Part shown: piece by piece, positions 15,991 to 43,715 of the stretch
Layout of the letters: each line of letters opens with the position of its first letter
Numbering within the stretch: the first letter of the stretch is position 1
Assembly (NCBI GenBank): GCA_946699065.1
Contig: CAMPDV010000011.1
Coordinates: forward strand, 1,054,001-1,118,000
Direction of reading: 5' to 3'
DNA from: Loxodes magnus
Taxonomy: Eukaryota > Ciliophora > Karyorelictea > Loxodida > Loxodidae
Length of the DNA: 64,000 nt
Notes under the pieces: generated by a model
Databases searched by the model: none
Seen by the model: the letters and a program-made list of their open reading frames with translations, nothing else
Told to the model about the DNA's origin: nothing
Translations under genes and position numbers: made by a program

Positions 15991-17735
15991 TCACATTTCG
16001 CCACTATATTTAATACTTACTAATTAGGACCGCCACCTCCTTCAGGGCATGTCCATTCTATGTAATTCCATGGAGTTTTGATATCGCATGTTTTGCAATG
16101 AATGCAATTCTAAGCGTTTATTTATAAAAATTTGTCTCCGTTTTTATCATCTAGAAATTCATATACACCAGCTGGACAAAATCTTTGCTCAACTCCTTTG
16201 AATTTATTCCAGCTTTCTAGAGGTTTTCTGTCCATATCTTTTTTGATTTATAGATGACATGGCTAATCCTCTTCATGGAAAGTATTTGTTCTATTTACAT
16301 TAGTAAGAATATCAAAAGTTAGCTTGTTATCTGGTTTAGGATATTCGATACGAGGGTTATTATTAGCAGGAAGAGTATATAAAGAATCCTTTTTACTATG
16401 ACTTAACTTTGTTGGTTCAATAAAGCCTCCTTTAGTTACATTTAGAGACATTCCACTTGTTATCATGCCTGGAATATTTCCATTTTCGAAGCAACTTCTA
16501 ATGTTCCTTGTTTGATTCAATTCTTCATAGATTGGGCTTTTTTTGAATAAATCATAATATTTGAATATTTCTCTTCCCTTACCTCTAGGATACCTCTCTG
16601 AATCATTTAAAATTGCTTCGGCAGTTGCTTCAGCTGCAAGAATTCCTGATTTCATGGCATTGTGGACACCTTTAATTTTAGGTACGTTAAGAAATCCTGC
16701 AGAACATCCAATCATCATTCCACCTGGAAAAGTTAACTTTGGAATTGAGTAAAATCCTCCTTCGTTCAAAGCTCTAGCTCCATAAGCAATACATTCTCCT
16801 CCCTCTAAAAATGTACGTATAAAGGGATGTGTTTTAAACTACTAAAAGGTCTAATAAGGAGAAAGCCAAGGATTAGTATAATCAAGTCCTACTACAAGAC
16901 CAGTATAAATTTTTCTATCTGCTTGGTGATACATAAAAGTTCCTCCATAGGTATTTAGATCAAAAGGCCATCCAACAGAATGCATTATTTTACCTTTTGA
17001 ATACATTTTATGTCCTTCAGGTAACTACCATATTTCTTTCATTCCAATACCATACGTTTAAGCAGCCACTTTTCTCTCTCCATCTTTCCATTAATCAAGC
17101 TTATAGTGCTTAATAAGCTTCTATGCTAGAAATCCTCTAGCTCCTTCTGCAATTATAGTTTGATTAGCTCTAATTTCAATTCCAGGTTAGAAAACACCTT
17201 CCTTAGGATTACCTTTTTTATCACGGCCCATATCAGCAGTAGCAATTCCTTCTAAGTAATTATTTTTATTAAAAAGAAGCTCATTTGCTGCAAATCCTGA
17301 ATAAACCTCTACTCCTAGTTCTTCTGCATGCTTGGCAAGCCATTTGCACATTTCACCTAATGAAATGATATAATTTCCATGGTTATTAAGTACTGGTGGA
17401 AGAGTAAATGAGGGTACTTCTAGATAAGAATCTTGAGTAAGTCAATAAAAATGTTCAGAAGCTACTTACGTTTTAACAGGACATGTTTCATCTGTTTTCC
17501 ATTTAGGCATTATTTCGCTTAGATAAGTTGGCTAGAAGCAACACCCAGAAATAATATGAGATCCAACCTCAGAACCTTTATCAACTACTAATACATGCAA
17601 ATCAGGGGCAAGTTGTTTTAGTTTTATAGCTGAAGAAAGTCCAGAAGGACCTGCTCCTACAATGCAAACATCAACTTGAACAGACTCTCTTTTTTAAGAA
17701 AATAATCTAATAAATCGACGAGTCTATTTAAGCAT
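15991..17735 (-). CDS. ETFDH: Electron transfer flavoprotein-ubiquinone oxidoreductase
   Basis: A mitochondrial inner-membrane flavoprotein that passes electrons from ETF (fatty-acid and amino-acid oxidation) to ubiquinone. It is 575 residues long, as expected. An Arg-rich presequence (MLKQTRRFIRLFS) is followed by the FAD dinucleotide motif IVGAGPSGLSSA near residue 24, the conserved blocks NNHGNYIISLGEMCKWLA and GGEC...GGFYSIPKL, and the 4Fe-4S ligands CPAGVYEF and CIHCKTCD near the C-terminus. The end PEGGGGPN-YGEM is reached only by removing a 17-nt GT-AG intron at 16004-16020, which lies just before the last four codons. Without it the frame runs on with no TGA. TGA is read as Trp in HFYWLTQ. 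The start at 17735 is supported by the targeting sequence. Confidence 0.96.
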
Positions 17736-18287
17736 TTTTAACTAAATCAAAGAAAGAGAATGAAAAGCTATATAAAACTATTTTATGCTAATTACTCCTA
17801 TTCTTACCTTTTACTTTTACTCTATTACCTACAAATTTTATAAGCGATACTTAAATTTAATTTGCTATGATAAAGCTATGATTTGTATCTGTTTTATCAG
17901 CCAAAGATCTTGCGAAGATTCTTAATCTGCTGATTATTTTATTAAGCACTTATTTCTTACAATTATACCAATCTTTTATTAAGCTCCTTTAGATTAATTC
18001 TAAAATTGCTTACACTGAGAATTAAAGTGCTCTATATGTTCCTTTCTAATATATAGATTAATTAAGATATGCTATAGTTATATATTAGAGGGCTATAATA
18101 GGAATACTTTATTAGCCATTTAATAAAATCCTATTTATGAGATAGTTGCTTTAGCTAGGAACTGATAATAAAGCATAAAAATAAGCTAATTAACAAAAAG
18201 ATTAAACTAGTTTTAAGTAGTGACTCTATATAAAAGTAAATGGTAGATTTCTTAATTTACACTTTTTATTCTTTATAAAGCATTAAC
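17736..18287. other. Divergent intergenic region
   Basis: About 550 nt between the divergently transcribed ETF-QO gene and the large orphan gene starting near 18288. It presumably holds both promoters. Nothing else was recognised. Confidence 0.4.
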
Positions 18288-21607: not shown

Positions 21608-21688
21608 TAATTAGTAATTAAAATAAATTCGCCATTTTTTTAACTTACCTTAAAAGCATTTTTTTCATTTTATTTATAATAAGGAAAG

Positions 21689-21766
21689 ATGAGAGAGAAG
21701 TGAAGGAAGAAGAGAATGAGAAGACTAAAGAGAAAGAGAAGAAAGATGAGAGCTAAGGCTAAGTGA
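21689..21766 (+). CDS. RPL41: Ribosomal protein eL41, 25 aa
   Basis: This tiny, almost entirely Lys/Arg/Met helix matches eukaryotic ribosomal protein eL41, which bridges the two subunits. From the ATG it reads MREKWRKKRMRRLKRKR and continues in the family pattern for 25 residues before TGA at 21764-21766. The invariant Trp at position 5 is encoded by TGA, so the same triplet means Trp at codon 5 and stop at codon 26. There is no intron. Its GA-rich composition stands out from the surrounding AT-rich DNA. It lies only 81 nt downstream of the large orphan gene on the same strand. Confidence 0.95.
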
Positions 21767-22915
21767 GTAGAATCTAAATACTTTATAATTATTTTAACAA
21801 CATTTAATCTTTTAGCTTTGATCAAAATAAACGAGTTTAGTTTTAAGTCAAAACATTGCTAATATAAAAGAATTTAAGCTAAAAAGTGATTTTCAAGATT
21901 AAAATCTTGCATGAAGGTCAATCTCAAATCATTTAGTGCTTAAAGAATTGTTTACAAAGTATAAATACTCATTACCTTTACATATTCCCATAGATGCATT
22001 TAAAACTTTTAGTTTTTTTTTGCATAATTGAATTCAATAAGGTATTTCATTAAAATATAAAAAGTAAGGTAACAAGCTATTAGCATGCATTATATTAGGC
22101 TATTATATATAGTCTCTTTCGGATCATTTAAGATTATAAGCAGACTTAATGTTGTTAATTTTAGCTTGCAGTTTGAAGTCTTTATAAGTATAAAAAATGA
22201 CTAACATAGTTAGTAGTTTTTTTGGTAATTAAATCTAGCATACACTTATAGTCTAATAAATATAATTAAGCTCTCATTATTATTAAACAAAATCTCTTCA
22301 ATAAACTATATCATAGAGATTTATTTAAAGCTTATCCATATAAATGCAAGCTAAGGGTCTCCTTATAAAAAATCTATTATATTTTAAACATCTAGAAACA
22401 AATATGCCTTCATTATCTTCAAATAGATTTTAATATATATTTCTAAAAGAGTAAGTTTATCATTAATTAATTAAAAGACATCATTATTTTAAATGCTGAT
22501 CTTAATCCTCAACTATCTATTTTAAGATTCATAAGCACTTACAGAGATAATTAGTTTAAAGACATTTTATTAGGAACCAAGCCATATGAAATAAAGAATA
22601 GTAAATTATATGCTCTAATAACTTTTCTAAGGAAGATAAAAATTAACACTTTAACTAAAAATATAAGAGTCTGTACTTCACTAGCAAGTGTTTACTTTTT
22701 TTGAAGGTCTTTAGTGAAATATGCTATTTAGATATTCATACTCTTATAAATCTAATTATGCAACATGAATCGCAGAGTAATTATTTGTTTAAATAAGTAG
22801 AAGTAGGATATAATATTTAAACTTGTGAAACTTTTAAATATAAGTAGTTAGTTTACTGTTTGGTTGAATATATAAATAAGTTTAATTTATAAAAGCTAAA
22901 ATACTTTTATTAATA
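21767..22915. other. AT-rich spacer
   Basis: About 1.15 kb without a recognised gene or RNA. It includes the promoter of the first GST gene. Confidence 0.4.
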
Positions 22916-43112: not shown

Positions 43113-43715
43113 TCACTTCTTCTTCTTTTCGAGTTTTCTCTTGTAAAACTCAAGTTCAGTTCCTTCAAGTATATAACTGTCAGCTCTGCCGACTTATCCA
43201 GGTCTGGACGAAATCTTAGCTAGAAGTCGTCCTGATTTAAATTATTCTTCTACAAGTGGATCTATGAATCTATCTTGTTATCTTTTTTTAAGTTCCTCTA
43301 ATTGTTCTGGAGTTCTCTATATTTCTTGTTGGTCAGTTTCCTTCTTCTTTCCTAGTTCTACACCATAGTGTTGTAAATACCATTGCTAAAATGGATGGGC
43401 ATCAATTACAACAATAGTTCCTTTTGTTAATGTTTAGGTTCTTACCAGTTCATTGTTAGTAGCATTGTATACAACATCCAATATTCTAGTCTTACGAGAT
43501 ATAGCTTCACTTGCCCAAACAGAGTTACCTTGATCTAAGCGCATAGCTCTGTATTTCTTATTGCCACCACGGCAGCGAACAACATGAACTCGTTCTGCTC
43601 CGAGTTTAGTATTAGCTGGCTATCTAGCTTTCTCGTAAGCTCTCTTTTTCTAATGAATTGGCATTCGTCCACCTGTTTTGCGTCGTTTGTGCCTTGAATC
43701 TCTACTTATTCCCAT
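43113..43715 (-). CDS. RPS8: Small-subunit ribosomal protein eS8
   Basis: A 200-residue cytosolic ribosomal protein of the 40S subunit. The start [20 protein letters not shown] is almost invariant in eukaryotes. It is followed by [59 protein letters not shown], the [13 protein letters not shown] block and a C-terminal [17 protein letters not shown] with a basic end. TGA at 43113-43115 follows KKKK. A single exon with no intron, and codon use is less AT-biased than in its neighbours, as expected for high expression. Confidence 0.97.

Follow-up and report, generated by a model that had tools for sequence, protein, structure and literature searches.

In the window analysed here, a stretch of 64,000 nucleotides of the Loxodes magnus genome (bases 1054001-1118000 of contig 11), we found an intact frame for the ribosomal protein eL41 (Table 1). 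An ATG is followed by 24 codons and a TGA, and the translation of the forward strand is MREK(TGA)RKKRMRRLKRKRRKMRAKAK(TGA). The starts of the TGA at codon 5 (TGA5) and of the TGA at codon 26 lie 63 nt apart; the translation thus confirmed the placement that the first-pass annotation had given to these two codons. When TGA5 was given as Trp, the peptide matched the Pfam family Ribosomal_L41 (PF05162) over 25/25 positions, with an E value of 2.6e-9 and a score of 37.3 bits vs a cut-off of 22.3. With Trp at position 5, it also matched solved eL41 chains of 30 distinct sequences up to an E value of 10 (best E value, 8.3e-6), and Trp5 was present in both of the two alignments examined from this set of 30.

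Table 1. Positions of the eL41 locus and of the other features discussed in the text, in window coordinates unless a contig is named.
Feature	Position	Strand	Basis
eL41 frame of 25 residues and its TGA stop (contig 11:1075689-1075766)	21689..21766	+	Translation; PF05162; PDB eL41 chains; eight genomic copies
Codon 5, TGA (TGG in the seven other copies)	21701..21703	+	Comparison of copies
Codon 26, TGA stop followed by G (same place in 8/8 copies)	21764..21766	+	Comparison of copies; alignment
Upstream 57 nt that align with L001, the closest paralogue; probably promoter/5' leader	21632..21688	+	Local alignment
Downstream 53 nt that align with L001; probably 3' UTR, as judged from sequence	21767..21819	+	Local alignment; published 3' UTR lengths
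eS8 ribosomal protein gene with in-frame TAA/TAG	43113-43715	-	Pfam match
In-frame TGA of ETF-QO (ETF-ubiquinone oxidoreductase)	17442-17444	-	Between the Pfam matches of the frame at about 16020-17738
Tandem tRNA-Trp(CCA) arrays, units of about 187 and 241 bp	contig 67:482321-491198; contig 148:155462 onwards		Pattern matches, among those listed

We searched the genome (705,730,643 bases in 7,843 contigs) with an eL41 codon pattern in which codon 5 could be either TGG or TGA and up to 2 mismatches were tolerated. Eight places were recovered, each with 0 mismatches, and the reversed control gave 0, which argues that the window frame is not a chance match. A Pfam search of the genome for eL41 with stops counted, in which 9 candidates were scored, retrieved 7 places, and the window copy was absent from them. 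Codon 5 is TGG in seven of the eight copies and TGA in the window copy alone, codon 26 is TGA in all eight, and the encoded 25 residues are identical throughout if TGA5 is Trp. The first-pass annotation had referred to the eL41 gene, with an invariant Trp at codon 5. The gene in the window turned out to be one of eight, seven of which use TGG; therefore, it is not the only source of eL41 in the cell. The invariance of Trp5 is borne out in part, by both structural alignments examined and by the seven TGG paralogues; in the window copy it requires that TGA be read as Trp.

The genetic code of this genome bears directly on that reading. In-frame TAA and TAG were observed within the Pfam matches of eS8, ETF-QO and NDK, indicating that UAA and UAG are read as sense. 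UGA occurs as Trp inside genes, in the manner of table 27, at the kinase motif SD[IV]WSLGC, and as a stop at the expected ends of eL41 (8/8), eL39 (4/4), NDK (4/4 genes with a clear C terminus) and eS8 (1/1). A code in which TGA is only Trp and both TAA and TAG are stops was discarded: it yielded 4 frames of at least 120 aa in the window vs 327 under table 6, and given that a code with one stop lengthens frames anyway, the weight against TAA and TAG stops comes from their in-frame occurrence inside Pfam matches.

A rule in which the base at +4 marks the stop was also rejected, since G follows the final TGA in 8/8 eL41 copies but A does so in eS8, T in 4/4 eL39 genes and A or G in NDK, so that G is not required. 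Regarding gene ends, the four eL39 genes (L016-L019) all finish with a tandem TGATGA, and the eight eL41 copies with a single TGA followed by G. The insertion of selenocysteine at codon 5 found no backing in Rfam, which includes the SECIS families: there were 0 matches in the window at the gathering thresholds and 0 between 21600 and 22400 up to an E value of 1. The removal of TGA5 by an intron is not favoured; a GT...AG stretch is present there, yet the TGG paralogues share the same layout, as judged by eye.

We then compared the use of TGA and TGG at Trp codons in other genes. The kinase motif gave 610 matches in the genome and 0 in the control; the 100 matches listed comprise 51 distinct strings, of which 37 have TGA and 14 have TGG at the Trp codon, although these strings are not independent because many kinase copies are repeats. 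One identical string with TGA as Trp appears in many copies among the matches listed (contigs 389, 529, 544 and others), which suggests an amplified kinase or repeat family. In the four eL39 copies, both Trp codons are TGG (8/8). For NDK, eight domain matches were obtained in the genome, and the C terminus is clear in four genes (L080-L083), whose 11 Trp codons, at distances of 4 to 20 codons from the stop, are all TGG. The other matches add 5 TGG (three in L084, one each in L085 and L087, none in L086), for a total of 16/16 when an ambiguous TGA of L084 is left aside. In L084, this TGA comes after WFYDAK, and a long, apparently coding frame continues beyond it, which would suit a sense codon; this gene was left out of the NDK stop count. 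Of two genes of the window, eS8 uses TGG at 2/2 Trp codons, and ETF-QO uses TGG at 9/10 and TGA at 1/10, if the latter is read as Trp. A Trp is usually found near the start of eS8, and the window gene carries Arg where it would stand.

Hence, TGA is common at the kinase Trp and absent at eL39 (0/8), at the NDK ends (0/11) and in 7/8 eL41 copies. This distribution agrees with the depletion of coding UGA in L. magnus over the ~20 codons that precede the stop, as described in PMC11441545. The same preference for TGG may reflect avoidance in highly expressed genes, as stated for the reassigned codons of Blastocrithidia in PMC12153298; the data are compatible with an effect of either stop proximity or expression.

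The history of the window copy was examined by comparing it with L001, its closest relative by flanks. The alignment of both copies takes in 57 nt before the frame and 53 nt after it, and the flanks showed 18 mismatches in 101 aligned columns plus 10 gapped columns. In a tree of the eight eL41 units, L001 was likewise nearest by path, and the group holding both copies was weakly supported (75/87). Within the coding sequence, the two differ at 6 bases, codon 5 included, and table 27 makes 6/6 of these differences synonymous; with TGA as Trp, all the coding changes that separate the window copy from the other copies are synonymous too. The window copy carries the combination of TGA at codon 5, AGA at codon 12 and CTA at codon 13. 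Codons 2-25 admit 216 single-base changes, of which 38 are synonymous. A window branch free to change ever since the two copies separated should have gathered ~6.0 nonsynonymous changes, vs 0 seen (P ~0.002); the flank rate behind this figure may be lower than the neutral rate, should the flanks themselves be under constraint. A long-dead copy is therefore disfavoured, and the purely synonymous divergence suggests that the window copy most likely still works as a paralogue.

A more recent loss of function is harder to dismiss, although we regard it as unlikely. According to this explanation, the window copy would be a young pseudogene or a silenced copy in which the change from TGG to TGA was tolerated thanks to seven backups, being either unexpressed or largely terminated at UGA5. 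The probability of observing 0 nonsynonymous changes rises to ~0.05 if constraint was lost for half of the window branch and to ~0.22 for its last quarter, TGA is present in just one of eight copies, and the sampled conserved genes use TGG at nearly all Trp codons. Moreover, the seven TGG copies, with their identical protein, make the window copy dispensable, which counts against its being functional. On the other hand, the single base that distinguishes it from the other seven falls among the 38/216 synonymous changes, AAG is used at 8/8 of its Lys codons, and its start, its stop and the G at +4 are all intact. A trivial origin of TGA5, as a consensus error or a minority allele, would suit the fact that a single base is involved and the k-mer heterozygosity of ~0.6% given in PMC11441545. 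We consider this highly improbable, because the window copy has its own diverged flanks, the pattern search recovered one such locus, and its remaining differences are clean synonymous changes. Taking this evidence together, the window copy, one of eight eL41 paralogues, probably still makes eL41, and its change from TGG to TGA would be synonymous in this code.

A tRNA able to read UGA5 was sought with a tRNA-Trp pattern, which gave 178 matches in the genome and 0 in the control. The anticodon is CCA in all of the 100 matches listed of these 178, and tRNA-Trp(UCA), which the pattern permitted, was not found among those 100, which lie in tandem arrays on contigs 67 and 148. ARAGORN identified eight tRNA-Trp(CCA) genes at locus L050 and drew the first of them with an anticodon stem of 4 pairs, the would-be fifth pair being A.C. 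This same A.C pair was marked as non-standard in the Rfam alignment of the L050 tRNA-Trp, and the genes of the array examined are identical to each other. Efficient reading of UGA by tRNA-Trp(CCA) with such a 4-bp stem has been described in some trypanosomatids and ciliates, and its presence has already been reported for Loxodes, as indicated in PMC13092985 and PMC12005148 with citation of Swart et al.

These observations can be assembled into a probable explanation. A G-to-A change would have turned the Trp codon TGG into TGA, synonymous in this code; UGA5 could then be read as Trp by the 4-bp-stem tRNA-Trp(CCA), and UGA26 would terminate because of its closeness to the poly(A) tail. A part for the tail in the choice of stops was proposed by Swart et al. 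2016. The first-pass annotation had stated that TGA serves as both Trp and stop in this gene. The stop is found at codon 26 of every copy, and we infer the decoding of TGA5 as Trp, rather than observe it; the reading is supported by the ambiguous use of UGA in this genome, the synonymous-only divergence, the Trp codon of the seven sister copies and the presence of a tRNA-Trp of the type that reads UGA.

The same annotation had called 63 nt a short distance and the gene close to the smallest possible test of how the two meanings are told apart; neither an unusually short distance nor a near-smallest test is supported by comparison with published cases. In Condylostoma magnum, sense "stop" codons located 24-66 nt (mean 50) before the true stops, in 16 of 1,672 transcripts, are efficiently translated, and ribosome profiling revealed no appreciable premature termination at them, according to PMC4967479. 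In addition, the gene finder used for L. magnus accepts in-frame UGA everywhere but in the last 21 nt, and the 3' UTRs of this species have a mean of 53 and a median of 41 nt (PMC11441545). If the conserved 53-nt flank is the 3' UTR, the tail would lie about 116 nt from UGA5 and about 53 nt from UGA26; distances that differ twofold should be comfortable for a rule based on them. UGA5 lies 21 codons before the stop, that is, at the edge of or just outside the reported depletion zone of ~20 codons.

This border position also gives rise to another reading, in which UGA5 is a leaky attenuator that is mostly read as Trp and sometimes causes termination after MREK, so that the output of the gene would follow the levels of tRNA-Trp and release factor. 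The retention of TGG at codon 5 in the paralogues would be in line with this proposal, as would the location of UGA5 relative to the zone depleted of UGA (PMC11441545, as cited above). We find it very unlikely, given that the C. magnum codons lie within a comparable distance of their stops and are translated without appreciable premature termination in the account of PMC4967479. The related proposition that the TGA copy acts as a translational sensor, with codon 5 placed where UGA begins to mean stop and an output that varies with tRNA-Trp and release factor, unlike that of the seven TGG copies, must be taken as a long shot.

Returning to the interpretation of the window copy as a probably functional paralogue, its main value resides in the company it keeps. 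The eight eL41 copies constitute a natural matched set with the same protein, length and stop, and with one UGA vs seven UGG at codon 5. This set could provide the cost of a sense UGA near a stop without a reporter, through footprints around codon 5. Mass spectrometry cannot separate the window copy from the other seven, because, with TGA as Trp, the eight products are identical. The terms RPL41 and ribosomal protein L41 were not found in the top-ranked literature on ciliates, Loxodes and karyorelicts; an earlier mention of this copy, for instance in Seah et al. 2022, the principal account of the karyorelict code, is possible.

The eL41 gene of the window is a new example of a known ambiguous code and a handy matched-pair test of it, and not a new mechanism. 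In the karyorelict code (table 27), described for Parduczia and Loxodes in PMC4967479 and PMC11441545, UAA and UAG are sense and UGA is Trp within the frame and stop at its end, as seen here. There is no difference in kind; what is particular to this case is that the frame has just 26 codons and that TGG paralogues encoding the identical protein are available as controls. The tRNA-Trp(CCA) with a 4-bp stem also resembles those previously reported, the topmost pair of its anticodon stem being an A.C mismatch, and may differ in that its copies, among those listed, sit in long tandem arrays. As for the sense "stop" codons of C. magnum, these share with the window eL41 a sense and a stop reading within tens of nucleotides of one mRNA; the C. 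magnum case rests on ribosome profiling, whereas the eL41 copy is known from its sequence alone, and its 63 nt correspond to the long end of the range observed in that ciliate.
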